Assembly: GCA_012517825.1 (NCBI GenBank)
Contig: JAAYUG010000049.1
Coordinates: forward strand, 1 to 48,554
From: Bacteroidales bacterium
GTDB lineage: Bacteria; Bacteroidota; Bacteroidia; Bacteroidales; JAAYUG01
Length of the DNA: 48,554 nucleotides
Reading direction: 5' to 3'
Shown here: positions 25,273 to 44,078 of the stretch, piece after piece
Numbering within the stretch: position 1 is the stretch's first letter
How the letters are laid out: each line of letters starts with the position of its first letter
Made by a program: the position numbers and the translations under genes
Notes under the pieces: model-generated
The model's input: the letters and a program-made list of their open reading frames with translations, nothing else
Told to the model about the DNA's origin: nothing
The model's database searches: none

Positions 25273-26277
25273 CTATGTGTTCACTGAAGGTGAAGCTATT
25301 AGGGAAGTTTTGCGCACTGCGTTGATCAGGTCAAGTATTGATTGATGCCTGCTGCAGTTACTGCCGTATGTTAATTCCCATTGATTTCCATGGAAAGCCA
25401 CTGAAAGTTCCGCCCCCGGATTATGGACAATCCCGGCCCTCTTCATAGCTTTCATTAACCAGGCGTTGGAAGCTGCTTCCGGGTCCAATGCCACCTGATA
25501 CATAGGGTGTTCCGTAAAACGGATCTGACCTGTTTCGGGATTGACATAGAAATCTTTCCCGTCAAAGTGTGCATCCAGCTGTCCTGTCATAAGAATATCT
25601 TCCGGTGCTCCTTCCGTCAGGGTACCTTCATGGAGATACCAGATTCTGTCGGCCAGCTGAAGTGCTGCTGACCAGTCGTGCGTGGAAAACAGAATCGTTT
25701 TGTTTTTCAGCCGGCATAAATCCCTGAGAAGCACGACAATTTCGTACCGGTTGATTACATCCAGAAATGCCGTCGGTTCATCGAGCAGAATAACAGGTGT
25801 ATCCTGGCAAAGGGCCCTTGCAATATGCACCCTTTGAAATTCCCCGTCGCTGATCTGATCCAATGGCTGACCGGCCAGATGAAGGGTATTCACACTGGTA
25901 AGTGCTTCCAGAACCTTGCTTTTATCGTCAGATGTCAGACTACCCACCCAGTTTGTATAAGGGTATCTGCCAAGTTCCACCATTTCCCTGACTTTTACGG
26001 CAGGACTCCGTGCGCGGGAGGAAGAAACAAAGGCAATGGTACGGGAAAGGCTTTCAGAGGTAAAATACCGCAATTTCTTGTTTTCCAGGAGAATTTCGCC
26101 AACAAGGGGAGTCTGAAGAGCGGCCAGGGTTCGCAAAAGCGTACTTTTTCCGGTTCCGTTCAATCCGATCAGGGCAATCAATTCCCCTTTTTCTGCCGAA
26201 GCAGATATTCCGCAGCTTACAGCAACCGGCTGGCTTCTTTTGAAATACCCTGTCGTTAACGTCTGAAAGGAAATCAT
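25273..26277 (-). CDS. btuD: Vitamin B12 ABC transporter ATPase (FecE/BtuD family)
   Basis: The cytoplasmic ATPase that drives corrinoid import with the BtuC-like permease. The 334-residue protein has Walker A GLNGTGKST (38-46), signature ISDGEFQRV in place of LSGGQ (a variant common in this family in Bacteroidota), Walker B VILLDEPTAFLD and the H-loop histidine in FSTHDWS. About 90 residues follow the ABC domain (NPETGQIRFTEHPMY onward), a C-terminal extension of unknown role. The substrate is inferred from the riboswitch-led locus, since the ATPase alone could serve iron siderophores. A 183-bp gap separates it from btuC. Confidence 0.87.
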   Translation of the reverse strand: MISFQTLTTGYFKRSQPVAVSCGISASAEKGELIALIGLNGTGKSTLLRTLAALQTPLVGEILLENKKLRYFTSESLSRTIAFVSSSRARSPAVKVREMVELGRYPYTNWVGSLTSDDKSKVLEALTSVNTLHLAGQPLDQISDGEFQRVHIARALCQDTPVILLDEPTAFLDVINRYEIVVLLRDLCRLKNKTILFSTHDWSAALQLADRIWYLHEGTLTEGAPEDILMTGQLDAHFDGKDFYVNPETGQIRFTEHPMYQVALDPEAASNAWLMKAMKRAGIVHNPGAELSVAFHGNQWELTYGSNCSRHQSILDLINAVRKTSLIASPSVNT

Positions 26278-26460: not shown

Positions 26461-27486
26461 TTAGCTGTCGATGCCTGCAGAGAGGGGTCGCCTTACGATT
26501 ACCCAAACAATAACAGGAATACCAATAAGTGCCGTAACAGCATTTACCGGAAGAATGATACCCCTGCCGGGGAGCTGGGAAATTATGTCACTGCTGACGA
26601 GAACTGCAGCCCCTGTGAGCATGGCGGCAGGCACCAGCACACGATGATTACCCGTACGAAATAACCATCGGGCAATATGGGGAACAGCCACTCCCACAAA
26701 ACCAATCGGGCCGCAATATCCGGTAATAAGGCCGGTAAGAATGCTGGTAGCAACAAGCAGCAAGATCCGCGTTCTGATAATATTGATGCCCAGGGTTTTG
26801 GCTTCCTGTTCTCCCAGCAAAAGAGCATTTAATGGTTTGATCCCCGCGATTGTTAATATAACCCCGAAGAGAAACACCGGAACGAGAATTTTGATTTGAT
26901 CTGAAGTAACTCCGCCCAAACTGCCCATTGTCCAGATGACAAAAACTTTCAAAGCCGATTCATTGCTAAGGTATTGCATAATGCCTATAATGGCCGAGAG
27001 GGCGCTACCCAACAGCATTCCGATAATCAGCATGGTGAAAACATCTCGCAGGCGCAGGGAGAGCAGAAGCATAATACCCATCACTGCAGCTGCACCGAAA
27101 AAAGCTGCCAGGAAAAGGTTCAACTGCCCGGGTATGGAACCGGAAAGCACATAACCCGGAAACCCCATTGTAAGCAATGCCACACCCAGTGCCGATCCGC
27201 TGCTTATTCCCAGCACATATGGACCGGCCAGCGGATTACGGAACAAAGTTTGCATCATAAGTCCGCTCGCCGAGAGCGAAGCACCGGCAACCAGTGCAGT
27301 GACTACCCGCGGAATCCGGAATTCCACGAGTATGTTCAGCACCATGGGATCCCGGTTGTTTCCCGTAAAAGTGCGCAAGACATCCAACAGGGAAATCTGA
27401 GTTGTGCCTGTCAGTATATCAGCACAAACCAGTATAACCAGAACAATCGCCAGAGAAATATATAAAAGGCTGTTATGCCGGATCAT
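26461..27486 (-). CDS. btuC: Vitamin B12 ABC transporter permease (FecCD/BtuC family)
   Basis: The membrane channel of the importer, about ten helices in 341 residues. Conserved features are EFRIPRVVTALVAGASLSASG near the start, then MQTLFRNPLAGPYVLGISSGSALG, both typical of FecCD permeases, and the later segment GPIGFVGVAVPHIARWLF. The frame is open upstream to a TTG at 27549, but that overlaps the preceding gene. The ATG at 27486 starts MIRHNSLLYISLAIVLVILV just before helix 1 and is the likeliest start; an ATG at 27528 is an alternative. Corrinoid specificity is inferred from context. Confidence 0.88.
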   Translation of the reverse strand: MIRHNSLLYISLAIVLVILVCADILTGTTQISLLDVLRTFTGNNRDPMVLNILVEFRIPRVVTALVAGASLSASGLMMQTLFRNPLAGPYVLGISSGSALGVALLTMGFPGYVLSGSIPGQLNLFLAAFFGAAAVMGIMLLLSLRLRDVFTMLIIGMLLGSALSAIIGIMQYLSNESALKVFVIWTMGSLGGVTSDQIKILVPVFLFGVILTIAGIKPLNALLLGEQEAKTLGINIIRTRILLLVATSILTGLITGYCGPIGFVGVAVPHIARWLFRTGNHRVLVPAAMLTGAAVLVSSDIISQLPGRGIILPVNAVTALIGIPVIVWVIVRRPLSAGIDS

Positions 27487-27508: not shown

Positions 27509-27784
27509 TCAGGAAGCCGAAAGAGCATTGATGATCTGCACCATGTCAAGAAAACCTTTTCTCACAGCGAGATAGTTTTTCTTTGCCAGTGCACGATCAT
27601 GGCGATTTTCCGGTGCATTGACAAGCGCCAGAAGTTCATTGTGTTTTTCTGCAATCTCTTCAATCGCCTGCATAATTTTCTCATCAGGAACTTCAGGATG
27701 CAGAATCTGGTACACCAGGCATTCTGATATCAGTTCCCAGGTAATGAAGTTCAGGTCTTTTTTAAGGTTACGTCGTGATGCCAT
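27509..27784 (-). CDS. Conserved small alpha-helical protein of unknown function in the B12 operon
   Basis: A 91-residue soluble protein, mostly helical and charged. It starts MASRRNLKKDLNFITWELIS and has a middle EKHNELLALVNAPENRHD. I recall similar small proteins with a MASRR-LKKD opening in other Bacteroidota, without known function. It has no signal peptide or membrane segment. It lies between btuF (7 bp upstream) and btuC (22 bp downstream) in the same direction, so it is made with the transporter. A cytoplasmic role is likely, such as ATPase regulation or a link to corrinoid handling, but this is only a guess from position. Confidence 0.75.
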   Translation of the reverse strand: MASRRNLKKDLNFITWELISECLVYQILHPEVPDEKIMQAIEEIAEKHNELLALVNAPENRHDRALAKKNYLAVRKGFLDMVQIINALSAS

Positions 27785-27791
27785 AATAGTG

Positions 27792-28949
27792 TTATTTTAA
27801 ATGAATAAAGTAAAACAATCCGTTTTCCTGTTTGGCCAGCCCATGCAGAATTCTGTACAGGTCATTCAGAATAATATCGGGATGAACGGTACCTGATTCC
27901 CAGTAATCATTTCCCCCGCCGGGCCCAATACGGGCAGTGTTGCTGAACACATTCCCGTTGCGGTAAGCGGGAATAGCAGCAAGGCGCAAGTCGGTGTTCT
28001 TAATGTCAGCCAGTGAACGCGCGGTACCTGCATTAATCCATATCTGTGCGTTAAAAGCCTTTCCAACTGCTTCTTCTATTGAGAGTTCATAGTTTTCTCT
28101 GGCGGTAAGATCGCTGCGCCAGTAAATTCCGCCTGCATCAGATATAAGCCGGGCCGTATAGGAATTGCCGGAGGGCACATTCCATGCATCCTTCCATGGA
28201 AGACCAGTCATGACAACGGGTTGCGGGGTATTATTTTCTGCCAGCTTTCTGAGGGAAAGGTACGAAGCCCGGACCGAAAAGAAAAAAGAATCGGCTTTCT
28301 GAGGAACTCCCATCATTCTCCCGATAAACCGGATCCATTCAGCCCGGCCTAAAGGTTCTTCCTCAAGGTACTCGGCTAAATAAACCACAGGAATATGCAG
28401 ACTCTCCATCCGTGCATACCAGGAAGTTACTTCCGGTCCGATTCCATAGGCAAAAATCAGATCCGGCTTTAACCTTGCAATACCTTCAAAGTCGAAAGAT
28501 CCTTCATAGCCTGCCTCGGAAATGTGCCCGTCCTGAATCAATTTTTGAATAGCTGCGCTGTATACGAATCGTGTTCCCGAAACCGAAACAATGGATGAAT
28601 CAAGCTGAAGGGCGGAAAGCATTCCTACATGGGTTGTGGACATACATACCACACGTTTTACAGGGGTACCAATAACAATCCTGCCCCTGACCGCATCCAA
28701 GGGAAGAGAAGCTGTGTTATTAGCAAGCAAGTACTCAACCGTCGTACCCTTCCCACCCTGCCAGGGAGAAAAAACCCTGAAAACGGTATATTCCGGAGTG
28801 AAATAAATGCGGAATTTCCCGGCATACTGAGGAACCAGACTGTCTGAGAACGCCTCGCGTACTGTTTTCCTTGCCGGTTGCCCCATACAGGAGTATAAAC
28901 CCAGAGCCAGGGCCAGAAATAATATTATGTGCCAACCGGTATGTTTCAT
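27792..28949 (-). CDS. btuF: Vitamin B12-binding lipoprotein (BtuF/FecB family)
   Basis: The periplasmic substrate-binding component. The 385-residue protein has a lipoprotein signal ending LYSC, with C21 as the lipidated residue. Two Rossmann-like lobes follow. The segment VKRVVCMSTTHVGMLSALQL opens the first, with the family's FDFEGIARLKPDLIFAYG after it. The second contains LSIEEAVGKAFNAQIWINAG and ends after a long helix (HPDIILNDLYRILHG). Its ATG at 28949 overlaps the TGA of the secreted protease gene by 4 bp. Corrinoid is inferred as the substrate from the riboswitch and the BtuB/BtuG genes; the binding-protein family alone also covers iron-siderophore proteins. Confidence 0.88.
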   Translation of the reverse strand: MKHTGWHIILFLALALGLYSCMGQPARKTVREAFSDSLVPQYAGKFRIYFTPEYTVFRVFSPWQGGKGTTVEYLLANNTASLPLDAVRGRIVIGTPVKRVVCMSTTHVGMLSALQLDSSIVSVSGTRFVYSAAIQKLIQDGHISEAGYEGSFDFEGIARLKPDLIFAYGIGPEVTSWYARMESLHIPVVYLAEYLEEEPLGRAEWIRFIGRMMGVPQKADSFFFSVRASYLSLRKLAENNTPQPVVMTGLPWKDAWNVPSGNSYTARLISDAGGIYWRSDLTARENYELSIEEAVGKAFNAQIWINAGTARSLADIKNTDLRLAAIPAYRNGNVFSNTARIGPGGGNDYWESGTVHPDIILNDLYRILHGLAKQENGLFYFIHLK

Positions 28950-31096
28950 TTTTGAATGACAAAACGGAAAGAATATACTGAATTGTTCCGGGTGGTAATT
29001 TTCAGAACATAAATCCCATTGTTCAGGAATCCAAAGGAAAAACGGGCCATGTTTTCATCTGCGTTCAATGAAGAAGTCCAGACGAGACGCCCGGACAGAT
29101 CAAACACACGGGCCACTATATCCCCTGAAAATAATCCGTTATGAACAAGATTCAGTTCCCCTGTGGCAGGAACCGGAAAAACTTTTGTATACGGCCTGGT
29201 ACTTTCTTCACTGGTTGTCTTCAGCCAGGTGAGATTGCAAACCTGCAGGCCCATATAGAAGGAAGCAGGAACAGAAAAAACCGTGTCGTAAGGAGTCCAT
29301 ATGTCCCGGTAACGAACATACGCAGAATTGGCGCTTCCCGGAGCACGTTCAAGCGTCTGGGCCACTGCAAAAGTATCCTTACTCCCGTAATAGATTTCAT
29401 ACCCAGCATAGATAGTATCCTTTGCCGGAAGATAATGCCATAAAGGAATGAAATTCAGCTGATTCACCTTAAGTGCCGTAAACAGAATCTTTTCGGAATA
29501 AATCCGGTTTTCCTGAGAAAGATTTCCAGACGAAACAAACAGAGTTATATATGAACCGTCAGCAGAGCTAAAGTCATAGAGTTTAAGTGGAAAAAGGAAC
29601 ACCCCGCTCAGGGTAGCCGAATCGGGCAGAATAAACTTTTCAGCAAAGCCATTTATTCCCAGCCAGTTATGTCCTGATGCGTATCCTCCGAAGTCAAGGT
29701 TCTTCAAACCGGTTTTTTCACCGGGGGCAATGTTTTTTAATGTATCACAACTAAGAATGGTATAATTATACGGATCAAAATGATCAATATGCGTAATTCC
29801 GGTATGGCCCGGATCGAGCCATGCCCGAAGCTGGTTGGCCGGAGGATAATAATCATCCCAGCACCGGTCGAAACGCTGAAAATAATCATTAACGGGGTTG
29901 GAACAGCTGGCATCCCCACCGGTAAGGGTACCGATGATTCTGTGATTCTGGTTGAACAAAGGGGCTCCTGACGAACCTCCTTCGGTGGCTCCTTTGTCCC
30001 ACCGGATAATTTGCCAATGCGACATATAGTCATATCCTCCGCCGAAATTGCCGTAAACCGGAGCATCATTATCGACTGAGATTTTCTTTACATCTCCGGC
30101 AGGATGGTGAATGGCAACTGTTGAAGTCACACCCGTGGTATCCAGATCCCACCCAAGGTAAATGGGTTTGTAAGAAGGCGGCGGTGGTACGGTAAGCTGA
30201 ACCAGGCTGAAATCAAGGCCGGAGACCGTGCTGATCAGTTCCGAACCGCTGATTGTTTGTGAAGAGCTTGCAGTACCGCTTCCGCAGCCTGAACGTTCAT
30301 AATTGAATGTAAAAACTGTCCGCCAGGCATCATCCTGATCGGCAATACAATGCCCTGCCGTAAGCAGATAAGGCTTGCCGTTTTGTTCGGTGTTGTTGAC
30401 AAGGCTCCCGGTACATAACGTGGTACCATTCACCAGCAGTTTTGCAACCCCACGCTTTTCCTTCTGCCATAAGGTACCTTCCGGACAATTGATATCCACC
30501 TCACACGCTCCGGAAACAGCAATCTGTTCATTGTTTTTTTCCTGAAAGCCGAAGACATCTATTACGCCACCGGCAACACGTCCAATGGCCAATTGATTGG
30601 GTTTATATTGCACCGGGGGAACATCGTACTCCACATAGCACAGGGAACCGCGGAGATGAGGAAGGGCCAGAAAATGCGAAGGCAGAACATTTTCAGAGGT
30701 ATAGGCCCCTTTCATATCCTGATAACCGGCAGTATAAACAAAAACAGAAGCCCCTTCAGGAAGCTCAAAATGGCTGAAGATAATTCCAACTGACAGGGCA
30801 TCGGGAACGTGAAAACCACAACGCCAGATACGGTATTTACCCGATTCGGTCCATATACCAGTGTTTTCCGGGGTCCATCTTCCGTCAAAGGGAACGGCGA
30901 ACTGCAAAGGCTTGGCAGTGGTGCCATCGTCAGGTGTCAGCATATCGCGGGAAACAGAGGGAAACGTAATAACGGGCACATTCCCTTTTGATGACAGACT
31001 TGCCGAGAGAGGCCACCCTCCGTGCTCCATCTGGGCATTTACCGATTGCAGAAAAAGACCGGCCGGAAGAAAAAGGAAAAATAACACCATAACCAT
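28946..31096 (-). CDS. T9SS-exported trypsin-fold serine endopeptidase (lysyl endopeptidase-like)
   Basis: A 716-residue secreted protease. A signal peptide (MVMVLFFLFLPAGLFLQSVNAQ) is followed by a propeptide-like region and then a chymotrypsin-fold domain. The triad is His249 in LLTAGHC, Asp295 in GLDFSLVQL and Ser376 in EGGSSGAPLF. The region CSNPVNDYFQRFDRCW with the later AWLDP resembles Lys-specific Achromobacter protease I as I recall it, which suggests cleavage after lysine. The C-terminal 75 residues (from FPVPATGELNL to SFRFVIQK) form a T9SS type A sorting domain, so the enzyme should be exported and often cell-anchored. The GTG at 31186 is rejected because a hairpin lies in that extension. 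It is coupled to btuF by a 4-bp overlap. Confidence 0.88.
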   Translation of the reverse strand: MVMVLFFLFLPAGLFLQSVNAQMEHGGWPLSASLSSKGNVPVITFPSVSRDMLTPDDGTTAKPLQFAVPFDGRWTPENTGIWTESGKYRIWRCGFHVPDALSVGIIFSHFELPEGASVFVYTAGYQDMKGAYTSENVLPSHFLALPHLRGSLCYVEYDVPPVQYKPNQLAIGRVAGGVIDVFGFQEKNNEQIAVSGACEVDINCPEGTLWQKEKRGVAKLLVNGTTLCTGSLVNNTEQNGKPYLLTAGHCIADQDDAWRTVFTFNYERSGCGSGTASSSQTISGSELISTVSGLDFSLVQLTVPPPPSYKPIYLGWDLDTTGVTSTVAIHHPAGDVKKISVDNDAPVYGNFGGGYDYMSHWQIIRWDKGATEGGSSGAPLFNQNHRIIGTLTGGDASCSNPVNDYFQRFDRCWDDYYPPANQLRAWLDPGHTGITHIDHFDPYNYTILSCDTLKNIAPGEKTGLKNLDFGGYASGHNWLGINGFAEKFILPDSATLSGVFLFPLKLYDFSSADGSYITLFVSSGNLSQENRIYSEKILFTALKVNQLNFIPLWHYLPAKDTIYAGYEIYYGSKDTFAVAQTLERAPGSANSAYVRYRDIWTPYDTVFSVPASFYMGLQVCNLTWLKTTSEESTRPYTKVFPVPATGELNLVHNGLFSGDIVARVFDLSGRLVWTSSLNADENMARFSFGFLNNGIYVLKITTRNNSVYSFRFVIQK

Positions 31097-31113: not shown

Positions 31114-31143
31114 CCCTGCCGGAAAAATTTTCCTCCGGCAGGG
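31114..31143. promoter_or_regulatory. GC-rich hairpin between btuG and the protease gene
   Basis: CCCTGCCGGA (31114-31123) and TCCGGCAGGG (31134-31143) form a perfect 10-bp stem with a 10-base loop. It lies 18 bp upstream of the chosen protease start. No T run follows on either strand, so it is not a standard terminator. It may affect RNA stability or relative expression of downstream genes. Confidence 0.5.
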
Positions 31144-31211: not shown

Positions 31212-32276
31212 TTAATAAAAATATATTCCGTTGGGTGCTATTCCTGCTAAAAAGGTATTAACAGCCTGTCCGGCCGGGGTAAAGATATGAACTTTTCCCG
31301 AGGCCGTATAACCCTGGATCTCGGTCACATACAACCGCCCGTTCAGTGGGTTGGCATTTACTGCATTGAACGATCCGGCTATCAAAGGAGTTGCAGGAAT
31401 CTGCGAATCGGAAATCCGGAAGGCAAATACTCCTTCATTTTCAACAAAATAGACATACTGGCCACCAGGATCGGATGCTACCGAAGAAGGATTGAAGTAA
31501 TCACCTGTACGGCCAATTACATAACTTTTTGAAGGTTCGTAGGTTCCCGGCTTCAGGGATACCAGTTTTGAATCCGTTTCGTATTCAATATATGACCAAT
31601 CGGGACTGTAAACAACCTTTCCCTGGCACAATACCCAGACCGAGCCACTGCCATCGCGGGTAAAAGCAACAGGGCCATCTCCGGCGACAATGGTTGATAC
31701 AACCTCATTGGCGGTTCGGTCAATAATGCTCACCGTACTGTCATTTCCCCATTGCCCGTTGGCCACGAGAAGCTTGTCACCATCAACAATCATTTTTTCC
31801 GGCTGATTGCCAACAGTGATGTCGGTTATCGCTTCGAGGGTTTCCGGGTTAAAAACCTTTACCTTCCCGGGAAAGGCACCATAGGTAATGTATCCTTTCC
31901 CGTCATTGGAAACAACAATATGGCGGGGATAAGATACTTCAATTATTCCAACCGACTGAAAGGTTTTCAGATCAACCACCTCAACTTTCCCTGAATTATT
32001 GGCTACAATGAAACCTTTATTCTTCCATGAAGCAAATGACATAACCACATCTCCCAGAGGCCGGTTATTGACCGCTTCAAAAATATTATTGATAACGGTA
32101 TCTTCCGTAAGAGGAATATAACTGACTGAACCGTTGTTATCTCTGAAATTTCCCTCATTGGTAATCATAATGCCGTGAAGGAATGAATTGTTACTACTGG
32201 TATCGTCCGGCTTCTCACATGATAACACGAAAATGCTGATTAGTAACACGACAAGCAAAGTTCCAGTATTTTTCAT
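31212..32276 (-). CDS. btuG: BtuG-like surface beta-propeller lipoprotein (B12 capture)
   Basis: A 354-residue lipoprotein; the signal ends VLSC with C20 as the lipidated residue. The rest is a series of about seven beta-propeller blades of YncE type. Examples are GKVEVVDLKTFQSVGIIEVS, GKVKVFNPETLEAITDITVG and STVSIIDRTANEVVSTIVAG. In Bacteroides, BtuG is a seven-bladed surface lipoprotein that binds cobalamin with very high affinity and caps BtuB. Position directly after btuB and behind a cobalamin riboswitch supports the same role. The family name rests on fold plus context; other YncE-like lipoproteins look similar. Confidence 0.85.
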   Translation of the reverse strand: MKNTGTLLVVLLISIFVLSCEKPDDTSSNNSFLHGIMITNEGNFRDNNGSVSYIPLTEDTVINNIFEAVNNRPLGDVVMSFASWKNKGFIVANNSGKVEVVDLKTFQSVGIIEVSYPRHIVVSNDGKGYITYGAFPGKVKVFNPETLEAITDITVGNQPEKMIVDGDKLLVANGQWGNDSTVSIIDRTANEVVSTIVAGDGPVAFTRDGSGSVWVLCQGKVVYSPDWSYIEYETDSKLVSLKPGTYEPSKSYVIGRTGDYFNPSSVASDPGGQYVYFVENEGVFAFRISDSQIPATPLIAGSFNAVNANPLNGRLYVTEIQGYTASGKVHIFTPAGQAVNTFLAGIAPNGIYFY

Positions 32277-32314: not shown

Positions 32315-34240
32315 TCAGCGCTGAAATCCAAGTTGAAGACCAAAGGCAAGGAAGCGGCCCGGCATGGGATAGCCTTTGATAATCTGGTAGGAAGTATTGA
32401 AAAGATTATCGGCTCTGGCATAAAGATGCCCGTTCAGGGTATGCGCCCTGAACTGAAAGGCTGCCGAAAGGCCTGCCAGGATAAAGGAAGGCAAAGGCCT
32501 GCCGGAATGATCGTCAGTAATGTATCTTTTGCCTGTATAATTCACAGAAGTTGTAAGCGACAAACGACGCAACTGCACTGTACCTGAATAGAAAGCGTTC
32601 AGCAGAGGAACATAACGAAGTTGCTTACCCAAAATTCCTGAAGTATTGTCGTAGATTGCGGTGCTGGTTGACCGGACAGCAGTAATTTCTCCCTGCTGGC
32701 GGATTTTTATACTGCCAAGTACCAGGGAATGAGCAAAGGAGAATTCGGCTCCCCGTGCCCATACTTTCTTATAATTAACGGGGTTAAAAAAGTTCCCTTC
32801 TCCCGTCCACACTATCAGGTCATTAATATGCGTTGAAAAAGCCGTCAGATCAAAGGTCAGGTTGTACCGATCCTGTTCCGTAAATGAAAGTCCTGTTCCG
32901 ATTTCCGAGGTATACCCTTTTTCAGGAAGCAAATGGGGATTTCCTCCGGGTTGCCAGTATTTTTCGTTAAGTGTCGGTGGCCGATATTTGGCGGCTACCG
33001 AAGCACGAACATACGAATGGTTGTTCAGGAAGTTCTTTCTGATTCCGGCTGAGGGCAATGGAACCGGCGCAATACTGGGTATAACTTCCAGGCGGAAAGC
33101 AGTATTAATAATGAAAGCCTTCAGGTCAATGCGCGCGGCGGTAAAAACAGCAAACCGTTCCTCTGCAATGCGCCGGCCGTAACTGTCTACCTGAGCCTGA
33201 ACATGTTGGAATGTTCCCCCTGCATCCCATGTGAGTCTTTTGCCGGCAATGTTCCGGAAATTGATATCGGCAAGGTATTGCTGTGCAGAAATATCGGAAT
33301 GCACCCTGCTGACAGAGTCGTTATAGAAAAGGTTATCATTGAAAAAGGCATTCCTGAAAACCAGGGAAGAACGCCGCATGGTGCGCACATACCGGAGGAA
33401 AATTTTCAGGGTAGAATCTTTCTGGGTTGCCACAGAGGGTACATACGAGCCCATGACGGCAGGAAGGTTTTTGAATCTGTCCTGATACCAGATACCTGCC
33501 TGAATCTGCCGGGAAGGATTTATATTAAAGGAAACCGTGTGGAACATTCCGTACGAGCGAAGCTGGTTATGATGCAACGTCAGCACAGGAGAACCATACT
33601 TGTAAATGTCTTTGTAGGGATACCGGTTTTCTGCGTTGCGTGTAAAAAAGATGCTTTTAACCAATACTTTTTTTCCGGAATATCCTATGTTTCCTGCCGT
33701 AAACCATGAACCATACGATCCGGCTTCGGTAGATAGTCCGGATGAGAAACCCTGTTCGGAGGAAGGTGAAGATGTTAGGTCAACCGATCCGCCGAACGTT
33801 CCGCCACCATATAAGGATCCTGATGCACCGTAAACAAGGGAGACTTTGTCTGCAATAGTAAGAGGTATCAGGGAGAGATCAGCATCTCCTGTTGTAGGGC
33901 TGTTGAGAGGGAATCCGTTCCAGGTGACCTGGGTATGGTTGGAGAAAGTTCCCCGGAAGGACAGGGAGGTCAGATTGCCGGGTGCACCATATGATTTGAC
34001 AAATACCGAAGAAACCGATGACAAAAGCTGGCCGGCATCCCTGGCGGTAACGGAAGCGAGATCTTCGCGGCCGAATGTTCTAATCTTGAATGCATCGGAA
34101 TAATAAACCGCCCTGGGTTGAACGATGCACACCTCATTAAGAGAGTAATTGAGAAGGGTATCCGGTGTTTCCGCCACGGCGGAAAGGCATAACATGCCCG
34201 GAAAAAGCAATACAACAGAAAAAGGTAAGGAATGTTTCAT
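32315..34240 (-). CDS. btuB: TonB-dependent outer-membrane receptor for vitamin B12
   Basis: A 641-residue outer-membrane barrel that imports corrinoids with energy from TonB. A signal peptide (FSVVLLFPGMLCLSAVAE) is followed by a short N-terminal segment and a plug domain: REDLASVTARDAGQLLSSV, then SLSFRGTFSNHTQVTWNGFPL and VYGASGSLYGGGTFGGSVDL. A barrel of about 22 strands ends in the usual aromatic strand (FLAFGLQLGFQR). The cobalamin riboswitch upstream gives strong evidence for the substrate. The ATG at 34240 lies 56 bp downstream of the B12 box. A 38-bp gap separates it from btuG. Confidence 0.92.
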   Translation of the reverse strand: MKHSLPFSVVLLFPGMLCLSAVAETPDTLLNYSLNEVCIVQPRAVYYSDAFKIRTFGREDLASVTARDAGQLLSSVSSVFVKSYGAPGNLTSLSFRGTFSNHTQVTWNGFPLNSPTTGDADLSLIPLTIADKVSLVYGASGSLYGGGTFGGSVDLTSSPSSEQGFSSGLSTEAGSYGSWFTAGNIGYSGKKVLVKSIFFTRNAENRYPYKDIYKYGSPVLTLHHNQLRSYGMFHTVSFNINPSRQIQAGIWYQDRFKNLPAVMGSYVPSVATQKDSTLKIFLRYVRTMRRSSLVFRNAFFNDNLFYNDSVSRVHSDISAQQYLADINFRNIAGKRLTWDAGGTFQHVQAQVDSYGRRIAEERFAVFTAARIDLKAFIINTAFRLEVIPSIAPVPLPSAGIRKNFLNNHSYVRASVAAKYRPPTLNEKYWQPGGNPHLLPEKGYTSEIGTGLSFTEQDRYNLTFDLTAFSTHINDLIVWTGEGNFFNPVNYKKVWARGAEFSFAHSLVLGSIKIRQQGEITAVRSTSTAIYDNTSGILGKQLRYVPLLNAFYSGTVQLRRLSLTTSVNYTGKRYITDDHSGRPLPSFILAGLSAAFQFRAHTLNGHLYARADNLFNTSYQIIKGYPMPGRFLAFGLQLGFQR

Positions 34241-34289
34241 AGTTCCTAATGTTTAACCCGAACATCTATCCGCAGTCCGGCGGATAAAT

Positions 34290-34466
34290 CCGAATGGCAG
34301 GTCTTCTGACTCACCCCTTTGCAGCGCCTTCCCGCCCGGGTTCAACGGACAGTGGCCAGGTTGCTGCAAAACATAAACAAGGGCTCACAGCAGCGGGTAC
34401 TGTTGCCGATTTGCACGGCATTCCCTTTTCATCACCATCGTTTGCTATACGACAGTGAAACCATTC
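34290..34466 (-). ncRNA. Cobalamin riboswitch
   Basis: Read on the minus strand, the region has the conserved order of the B12 aptamer. These are AAAGGGAATGCCG (near 34428-34416), AGTACCCGCTGCTGTGAG (near 34402-34385), CCACTG (34354-34349), GGGAAGGCG (near 34333-34325) and the B12 box GAGTCAGAAGACCTGCC (34312-34296). It lies between a promoter element and btuB and should lower expression when cobalamin is plentiful. A small hairpin, ATCCGC (34268-34273) with GCGGAT (34280-34285), lies between aptamer and start codon and could be part of the expression platform. There is no T run, so control of translation is more likely than termination. Confidence 0.93.
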
Positions 34467-34472
34467 TGAGGA

Positions 34473-34480
34473 CAAAAGTA
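34473..34480 (-). promoter_or_regulatory. -7 promoter element TACTTTTG of the B12 operon
   Basis: On the minus strand TACTTTTG fits TAnnTTTG exactly. Transcription would start near 34468, right at the 5' end of the riboswitch aptamer, which agrees with its role. No convincing -33 TTTG is found. Confidence 0.6.
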
Positions 34481-41579: not shown

Positions 41580-44078
41580 TCAGTGCGAAATTACCAGGCG
41601 ACGGGAAACATTTCCACTGGCTGTATACAATGTGATCAGATACATGCCGTCTTTCCACTGCTGTACAGGAATTTTCAATGCCACATCGTTCTGAGTTCCT
41701 GACAAAGTTTCCGACCATTGTACCTGTCCCAGCAGATTGACGATGGTCAATGTAACCTTGTCTCTGACTGGCAATCCTTTAAGCGAAATGTAAAGATACT
41801 CTGATGCAGGATTCGGGAAAACCGAAAGATTCTCATGTGTAACTGAAACCGAAGGCACATCCACATAATCCTGAATATGAATATTGTCGATGGCCCATCC
41901 CCAGCCATGTGCATAAGGATCGCTGAAAAGGCGGAACCTTATGAGAACCGTATCCTCCGGTTGAAAATAGGGATCGGAAAGCAAATTGATAACCCGCACC
42001 TTAAACAGCGACATATCACCAACGGCAAGCGAATTACCACGGATATCTTTTGAACTATTGTACTTTGCAAGCCATTCAGGGTATGCACGGCAATCCCAGC
42101 CGGGGACGAATGGTTTCCAGGTACTTCCTCCATCTTTAGAACCTTCCACCACCACATAGTCATAAAAATCAGTACTGCCAAACACACTGTTCTCCTCTCC
42201 CGGTTCCACCAGGGCTATCTCCCAGAAGGTCATGTAGGTTGCCGGTCCTGTAAGAATAACCGGAATTCGCAACTGAGCCGTAAAATTCAGCTTCTGATTA
42301 TCCATATCAGGACTTTTGTAAGGATGTTCACTGTGCAATCCCAGGGTATAGAAGCCTGACGGCTGGTCAATGGAAAAGCCATTCATCAGAAAATCAAATG
42401 TTCCGGAATTAAAATCATTGTGATAACTGCGGACAGGTTCCGGGACCGGCTCGACCTGAAGAGTAAAGTATCCTGATTCGGGAAGACGGGTTTCGTTATG
42501 CGCCTTTGACTTGTCTCTTGCCACAATGCGATAGAAAATCGTATCGTCGGCTGTAATACCTGCCAATCTGACAGGAATGGAGGCTGAATAATAAACCAGC
42601 GAATCATGCCGGAGACCTATGGCAGGTTGAGGGGTCTTGTTCACCAGATATTCTATAAAAGCTGTATCCACTCCCAGGTTATCCCGCACCACTGCTTCCA
42701 GAATAACAGAATCGGCTACATCAAGAACATACGGAACAGGTTGATGCTGAATATAGGGTTTGATGGTATCTTCACCTATATAGAAGGAGTAAACAAAATC
42801 AGGAGCCCCTGAAGGAGCAGTAAACAAACGCTGGAAGGTATCTTTTACGGAAATATAATAGAAAATTCGTTGTCCCAGTTTTGTCAAAGGAATATCAGCA
42901 GAGAATTCATTGGGATTTCCGGTTGGCAGCAATGGCTTTACGGTTGAGGTTCTGAAAGTATCAGAAGAAAAATACAATTTCACGGAATTACGTGAAAGAG
43001 CGGTATCACTGGTAACAACAGCCCTAACAGTGACCCGTGAGGTAAGATCTTCAATGTCGGGCAGTGTATCGTGTTTGATCCAGGTATGAATCCATCCCAG
43101 ATCTCCGAGGATTCCGAGGGCAATCGGGCCCGGGTCATGAATAACTTCCATCGTCTGGGTGGCATGTGTCATAAGGCCGTTTATAGTCCCATCGTATTTG
43201 CTGTCGTCAAGATGAGCAATACTGGATCCCTGATCCCACTTGGAAGGAGCATAAAGTTTTGCATTAAACCCTGAATTGGCGCTTCGGGCAACGATTCCGT
43301 CAAAATATACCTTATTGCTTCTCAGCGCTGATCCGAGCAATGTTGATGGACGGGGATAGTAATTCGTGTCGACAAGATAAAGACCATAGATATTTGTTAC
43401 GTACTTATCGAAAATAACCGGAATCCCGGTAGAACCAAGTCCATAATCACCTTCGCGCGTGGCAGAATAATACGTAAAGCTTCTGACAAAACCCAGACCA
43501 TGGCAGAGTTCATGCAGAACAGTTGTTACAAAGTCATACTTACCGGAAGGGCAATTGCCATCGGTTCCAAAATACCAGAGGGACAGATCATTAGAAAAAG
43601 AACCGTAAATATCAGGCTGGTCTTCGCCATTAATATCGCGGCCAAGCATCCGTTCTGCCAGCACCACGGGAAAAAACTTAAATACATCGGAAGACCCGTC
43701 AAAGCCTCTGTAATATACTGATGGACCGGTACTTCCAAGAACACCGGAGGGCAGTTTTTCCCAGGTGGCATCAATTCTTATTGGCACCGGAGAAGTTATC
43801 ATGGAAGCCCAGAGGCTCACTGCATAATCAAAAGCGGTTTTCGCCGCCGAAGGGAAGTCATGATACGTTACCCTGATATCCGCCTTTTTGACAGAAGCAG
43901 ACTTGAGGCGGGATAGTAATTCAGGGCGTGGTAATATTCTGGTATTGGCATCAACCGGCAAACCATAACATACCGGAGGAGGAAACGTTACCGGTTCTCC
44001 GAAAAAAGTTACCTGGGCCGTACCCTTCCCTATAAAAATAAGCAGTAAAATAGAAAACAAAACACTTGTCTTTCTCAT
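41580..44078 (-). CDS. T9SS-exported putative zinc metallopeptidase
   Basis: An 832-residue secreted protein. The signal peptide (SVLFSILLLIFIGKGTAQ) is followed by a domain with the zinc motif VLHELCHGLGF, in which H189 and H193 bind zinc and E190 is catalytic. The usual metzincin third ligand position holds Arg in HELCHGLGFVR, so the third ligand must lie elsewhere. A later block, IAHLDDSKYDG then GILGDLGW, recurs in similar secreted peptidases. Two or three beta-sandwich domains follow, and the protein ends in a T9SS type A sorting domain (FPNPASEYLYISLKGL to RRLVISH). It is monocistronic. Substrate unknown. Confidence 0.82.
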   Translation of the reverse strand: MRKTSVLFSILLLIFIGKGTAQVTFFGEPVTFPPPVCYGLPVDANTRILPRPELLSRLKSASVKKADIRVTYHDFPSAAKTAFDYAVSLWASMITSPVPIRIDATWEKLPSGVLGSTGPSVYYRGFDGSSDVFKFFPVVLAERMLGRDINGEDQPDIYGSFSNDLSLWYFGTDGNCPSGKYDFVTTVLHELCHGLGFVRSFTYYSATREGDYGLGSTGIPVIFDKYVTNIYGLYLVDTNYYPRPSTLLGSALRSNKVYFDGIVARSANSGFNAKLYAPSKWDQGSSIAHLDDSKYDGTINGLMTHATQTMEVIHDPGPIALGILGDLGWIHTWIKHDTLPDIEDLTSRVTVRAVVTSDTALSRNSVKLYFSSDTFRTSTVKPLLPTGNPNEFSADIPLTKLGQRIFYYISVKDTFQRLFTAPSGAPDFVYSFYIGEDTIKPYIQHQPVPYVLDVADSVILEAVVRDNLGVDTAFIEYLVNKTPQPAIGLRHDSLVYYSASIPVRLAGITADDTIFYRIVARDKSKAHNETRLPESGYFTLQVEPVPEPVRSYHNDFNSGTFDFLMNGFSIDQPSGFYTLGLHSEHPYKSPDMDNQKLNFTAQLRIPVILTGPATYMTFWEIALVEPGEENSVFGSTDFYDYVVVEGSKDGGSTWKPFVPGWDCRAYPEWLAKYNSSKDIRGNSLAVGDMSLFKVRVINLLSDPYFQPEDTVLIRFRLFSDPYAHGWGWAIDNIHIQDYVDVPSVSVTHENLSVFPNPASEYLYISLKGLPVRDKVTLTIVNLLGQVQWSETLSGTQNDVALKIPVQQWKDGMYLITLYTASGNVSRRLVISH

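Follow-up and report, generated by a model that had tools for sequence, protein, structure and literature searches.

The window, by which we mean the whole stretch of 48,554 nucleotides analyzed here from a Bacteroidales bacterium, carries on its minus strand a cobalamin riboswitch followed, in this order, by btuB, btuG, an S1 protease gene, btuF, hyp91, btuC, and btuD. The features of this locus are the following:

34279 to 34480, minus strand: cobalamin riboswitch aptamer (RF00174) at the head of the operon, 105.8 bits against a gathering threshold of 31.5
32315 to 34240, minus strand: btuB-like TonB-dependent receptor with a Plug domain and PDB matches to Bacteroides BtuB
31212 to 32276, minus strand: btuG-like surface lipoprotein beta-propeller (DUF5074/YncE-like), with PDB matches and a lipobox, LSC, in its sequence
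31114 to 31143, minus strand: hairpin 5' of the protease ATG, in the btuG-protease gap, with a 13-bp stem and no U-tract (-32.9 kcal/mol, z -4.2)
28946 to 31096, minus strand: secreted S1 endopeptidase of the Lys-C/Achromobacter protease I type (Pfam, NCBIfam, phmmer, and AlphaFold/Foldseek)
27792 to 28949, minus strand: btuF-like lipoprotein substrate-binding protein (Peripla_BP_2), whose ATG overlaps the protease stop by 4 bp
27509 to 27784, minus strand: hyp91, a 91-aa protein between btuF and btuC, with no Pfam family
26461 to 27486, minus strand: btuC-like FecCD permease (PF01032, E 6e-79), its start codon picked to follow hyp91
25273 to 26277, minus strand: btuD-like ABC ATPase (ABC_tran; corrinoid ABC ATPase model at 171 bits, under the cut-off)

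The locus holds a full Bacteroidota-type B12 uptake set, namely the riboswitch with BtuB, BtuG, BtuF, BtuC, and BtuD, and it carries the only copy of RF00174 in the 3.3-Mb genome. The best PDB matches of BtuB were the BtuBG complexes of Bacteroides (8p98/8p97/8bmx, E ~3e-48), and those of BtuG were 8bmx_D/8p97_B/3dsm (E ~1e-29); the NCBIfam BtuC model reached 192 bits on the window btuC, under its cut-off. Homology to the solved BtuBG complexes suggests that the proteins of this locus bind and transport B12. The initial annotation of this DNA had described a T9SS serine endopeptidase lying between btuG and btuF in a riboswitch-led B12 locus, which is borne out by the domains, the PDB matches, and RF00174; the 4-bp overlap that it reported was likewise found, the protease TGA and the btuF ATG sharing ATGA at 28949-28946. 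Homologues of hyp91 occupy the same position in four families (f1, f8, f15, and f64), and a 90-aa relative was observed near a lone protease in locus L063. The hairpin was considered as a terminator or regulator and rejected, as it has no U-tract and was absent when looked for in the sister species (L032), indicating that it is not a conserved part of the operon.

The protease open reading frame extends from an upstream GTG (31186-28946, minus strand), and the translation from the ATG at 31096 starts with a signal peptide, MVMVLFFLFLPAGLFLQSVNA|Q, so that the extent initially given for the gene, 28946-31096, was correct. Pfam and NCBIfam searches detected Trypsin_2 and a Por_Secre_tail/T9SS type A sorting domain, the latter at the C-terminus with 36 bits for PF18962 and 38.8 bits for TIGR04183 (cut-offs 27 and 23, respectively). 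The same genome, in which the protease gene is present in one copy, encodes PorU, the T9SS sortase (NF033707, 1278 bits against a cut-off of 420). By phmmer, the protein matched Achromobacter protease I (API; 1arb, E=9e-37) and also Lysobacter Lys-C (4nsv/4nsy). These structures also came top when Foldseek was run on an AlphaFold model built from 37 sequences (mean pLDDT 86.6), with TM-scores of 0.88-0.89 on the target (1arb, 0.89). The modelled domains are an N-terminal beta domain, the catalytic domain (~residues 195-445), a second beta domain or beta-sandwich, and the T9SS type A sorting domain.

In alignments to 1arb, the triad H57, D113, and S194 was identical in the window protease and in all 32 btu-linked loci described below, and the equivalent of Asp225 was Asp in 32/32 of them. 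Asp225 forms the base of the S1 pocket and is linked to the preference for Lys in S1 lysyl endopeptidases; from these residues, the window protease is predicted to cleave after Lys. The Trp169-His210 pair supports high activity in API, and the family fold does not need it; Phe and Thr stand at these positions in the window protease, and both are variable among relatives. The window protease shares its fold, its triad, and Asp225 in the S1 pocket with API and Lysobacter Lys-C, whereas the extra beta domains, the T9SS tail, and the setting in a B12 locus set it apart. Other roles for the protein were considered and rejected. The middle beta domain is not retained as a B12-binding module, since it matches that of the window at only 14-32% across families and is absent from the linked proteases of f8 and f15, and also because the Foldseek matches of the whole model stem from the catalytic domain. 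An anti-phage role was discarded, as PADLOC gave no match.

The protease was then searched for in 393 genomes of the order and in 60 diverse relatives, the flanks of the best protease matches were taken, and their genes were scored with models derived from the operon of the window. Same-strand btu genes adjoin the protease in 32 of the 102 best loci, the window included, and these loci belong to 12 families within the order. The recurrence that the initial annotation had proposed to count in related genomes is, therefore, clearly present. Wherever both neighbors were found, the protease lay between btuG and btuF, and a cobalamin riboswitch was located upstream of the operon in 19 of the 32 linked loci. 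The spacing between the protease and btuF was below 40 bp in 22 of the 25 loci with btuF, the remaining three having a gene for a TPR protein inserted between the two, and 4-bp overlaps, as called, were seen in seven loci from four families. TPR proteins of 910-1219 aa were also observed 3' of the protease in f43, f38, and f118, with or without btu genes (for example, L075:9199-12858 and L063:9150-11882). A placement of the protease by chance, which had been held open initially, is not supported: random placement would bring ~0.3-0.8 of the 102 loci, that is, fewer than one, to within 5 kb of, and onto the same strand as, a B12 locus, against 32 seen, although these loci are related by descent, were picked as best matches, and are not independent draws.

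Protease homologues are common across the order and mostly unlinked to btu genes, and the family is thus not specific to B12. Outside the order, a strong homologue was present in 18 genomes of a 346-genome phylum sample, and none of the 18 was near a riboswitch. A scan with narrow peptide patterns matched the sister MAG only. On a tree covering the catalytic region with a portion of the domain that follows it, the label for linkage changed 12 times, at least seven of these changes being forced by starred branches, compared with a mean of 27.6 after shuffling. These counts point to an old, clustered association of the protease with btu genes, with several losses. A faster evolution of lone proteases was considered and dropped; the difference was slight in f43 and not seen in f23, in a comparison that extends partly past the catalytic domain.

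The genes around the block are conserved as well. In many families, secA-dapA-ligA lie on one side of the B12 block and a glycosyltransferase (GT2) gene followed by argS-ffh-folD on the other; in the window, this neighborhood, in the order secA-dapA-ligA, B12 block, and GT2-argS-ffh-folD, spans 19650-44078. We know of no B12 role for secA, dapA, ligA, argS, ffh, or folD. Because these flanking genes stay in place too, the order of the protease and btu genes is in part inherited, and part of their conservation may reflect inherited gene order; the use of recurrence as clean proof of function was dropped once the shared ligA/argS neighborhood was found. Next to secA, the window also encodes a T9SS-tailed protein (41580-44078, minus strand) with a weak NCBIfam metalloprotease match (64.7 bits, under the cut-off of 80).

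The strongest rival explanation follows from this neighborhood: a general nutrient protease may have resided there since an ancestor of these families, sharing the btu operon by inherited order and having no specific B12 role. The persistence of secA-dapA-ligA and argS-ffh-folD around the block, despite their unrelated functions, favors this explanation, as do the 12 label switches on the tree, the abundance of unlinked homologues, and five genomes (G044, G321, G233, G039, and G119) that keep the protease at the ligA/argS site without any btu gene and in which the riboswitches found lie on other contigs than the protease. Partial blocks occur at this site in f8 (protease-btuF-btuC-btuD, without btuB, btuG, or a riboswitch) and in f23 (btuB-btuG-protease, without btuFCD), and, when 80 further regions anchored on ligA were sampled, only a subclade had btu genes or the protease at the site. 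The integral position of the protease, the co-directional operon, the recurrence in 12 families, the 19 riboswitches, and the overlaps in several families speak for the interpretation first offered, but the five genomes without btu genes and the two families in which protease-btuFCD has no riboswitch (f8 and f72) speak against a strict reading of it. Similarly, the overlap remains a fair argument for joint expression, as had been claimed, but one weakened by the fact that the conserved order is partly inherited and also holds secA, dapA, ligA, argS, and ffh.

The loci in which the association with ligA was broken speak for a coupling beyond inherited order. In three genomes of f72, the protease is found with btuFCD away from ligA, and in one of them (G073) the riboswitch, btuB, and btuG have kept their place next to ligA while the protease and btuFCD have moved. 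G357 (f112) and G261 (f64) carry the whole linked block without an adjoining ligA, which other members of their families keep. The linkage of protease and btu genes has outlived that with ligA in f72, f64, and f112. The same is probably true of f7, in which the btuB-btuG-protease-btuF genes of G008 occupy a short contig and the 11.5 kb adjoining its ligA contain no btu gene. The position within the operon and the 4-bp overlaps in four families also argue against a mere passenger, as does a pairing found at a different site in three f30 genomes, where the protease and a PKD-DUF4465 gene are arranged tail-to-tail outside the ligA neighborhood. These genes, encoding putative B12 binders, are:

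L043:11232-12233, PKD-DUF4465 gene
L079:9183-10190, PKD-DUF4465 gene
L130:5958-6959, PKD-DUF4465 gene

Divergent DUF4465 domains have been reported to bind B12 (PMC13398666). In G090, the neighbor of the protease is a DUF4465 gene that is headed by a riboswitch and encodes a T9SS tail, and the f64 operon additionally contains, before btuB, genes for a DUF4465 (BtuJ-type) protein and for another protein with a T9SS tail. The latter represents a second, unnamed T9SS-tailed family, observed between the riboswitch and btuB in f64/f15 loci (L064:2898-3929, L074:12334-13401, and L119:168-1214) and after the DUF4465 gene in two of these three. We consider an explanation by inherited order with no B12 role to be a serious contender, somewhat less likely than our main proposal below.

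Our main proposal, to which we assign a probability of about 0.42, is that the protease is a conserved accessory of the B12 locus that frees or unmasks protein-bound corrinoids, working in a manner similar to the Fus or gingipain systems. The data above directly support the identity of the genes, the catalytic residues, the signal for export, the position in the operon and relative to the riboswitch, and the recurrence. The enzyme would act as a lysine-directed endopeptidase that the T9SS exports and that is either kept at the surface or released; since its gene lies downstream of a cobalamin riboswitch, it would most likely be made at low B12. Outside the cell, it would cut proteins that hold corrinoids, and the freed cofactor would pass to BtuG/BtuB, presumably to the benefit of corrinoid uptake. 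Candidate substrates may be the corrinoid enzymes of lysed neighbors and the BtuG/BtuJ-type binders shed by competitors. The interpretation first offered for the gene is partly supported overall, the degradation of cobalamin-carrying proteins being its hypothetical part. BtuG2 of Bacteroides needs no protease to take B12 from intrinsic factor, which counts against the need for such an enzyme (PMC6143338).

MetE was searched for in 40 genomes, including that of the window, and was found in none, the control genomes being positive. Its absence implies a high demand for B12, the shortage of which should be costly, and is thus in line with the release of bound corrinoid. It equally permits another explanation, because lack of B12 should then also mean lack of methionine: low B12 would stop MetH, and the riboswitch, present upstream in 19 loci, would turn on a protease whose peptide products supply methionine. 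This scenario appears improbable to us, since a lysine-directed enzyme is no special source of methionine, the operon contains no peptide importer, and no riboswitch accompanies the copies in f8 and f72.

Alternatively, the protease could mature or turn over the cell's own surface proteins, by trimming or removing BtuG/BtuB or by shedding BtuG. The protease and BtuG/BtuB share a compartment and an operon, and BtuG of Bacteroides was reported to be partly in the supernatant (PMC6143338). We regard this as very improbable, as relatives (L149 and L190) and Bacteroides (PMC6143338) also have BtuBG loci to which no protease is linked. A self-protection of BtuG by lysine depletion was also considered and rejected: depletion was not seen, lysine making up 4.7% of BtuG in protease-bearing loci compared with 4.4% in controls, which comprised three BtuG only. 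This result counts against our main proposal.

Members of microbial communities compete for corrinoids, and the extracellular pool is held by very tight binders. BtuG is able to quench corrinoid sharing, and secreted proteases were named by the authors as a way to undo this (PMC13374852), while the mechanisms by which bound corrinoid is released were left unresolved in the study of BtuJ (PMC12751083). If our main proposal is true, a protease built into this uptake operon in at least 12 families would be a direct answer to how the bound pool is reopened, "protein piracy" would reach beyond iron and heme to include a vitamin, and competitors could undo the quenching of B12 sharing by binding proteins (PMC13374852). 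In a broader and more tentative form, extracellular proteolysis may be a step that this Bacteroidota group has conserved in the scavenging of corrinoids, with a riboswitch-governed, T9SS-exported Lys-C-type protease opening protein-bound pools, including B12 held by the BtuG/BtuJ of competitors, for BtuBG.

Finally, the locus can be compared with known systems. Riboswitch-led B12 loci of Bacteroides contain btuB, btuG, and btuFCD with the accessory genes btuH, btuJ, btuK, btuL, and btuX (PMC6143338, PMC8941943, PMC12751083). The riboswitch, the BtuB/BtuG pair, BtuFCD, and accessory surface proteins are also present here, as are DUF4465/BtuJ-type genes in related loci. In term searches of these reports, the accessory proteins were either lipoproteins that act as binders or proteins of no assigned function, and no protease was listed in the locus, whereas here a T9SS-exported protease is present (PMC6143338, PMC8941943, PMC12751083). 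The initial statement that no B12 locus with a protease had been described agrees with these Bacteroides B12-locus papers; searches of openly licensed literature gave no description of such a protease either, and an earlier description elsewhere is possible. Protease-assisted capture is documented for iron, in the Fus system of ferredoxin uptake (FusA/FusC) and in YddB/PqqL (PMC6071955, PMC6793856), where the gene for a TonB-dependent receptor is accompanied by that for a protease releasing a scarce nutrient from protein; the window operon likewise pairs receptor and protease genes. The Fus/PqqL proteases are, however, periplasmic M16 metalloproteases that cut an imported protein to obtain iron, whereas the window has an S1 protease with a surface/secretion signal in a vitamin system, and it is for this reason not a member of the Fus type but only similar in its proposed working. 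The gingipains Kgp/RgpA of P. gingivalis work with the hemophore HmuY for heme (PMC10100897), and here the proposed likeness is that T9SS-exported Lys-/Arg-specific proteases help a surface binder and a receptor to obtain a tetrapyrrole from proteins. Gingipains are cysteine proteases serving heme, whereas the window protease is an S1 enzyme linked to cobalamin. To our knowledge, the gingipain/HmuY system has no integration of the protease into an operon like that of the window locus. Protease-assisted capture of a cofactor is thus known for iron and heme, and what would be new here, by analogy, is its extension to an S1 T9SS protease within a B12 uptake operon.
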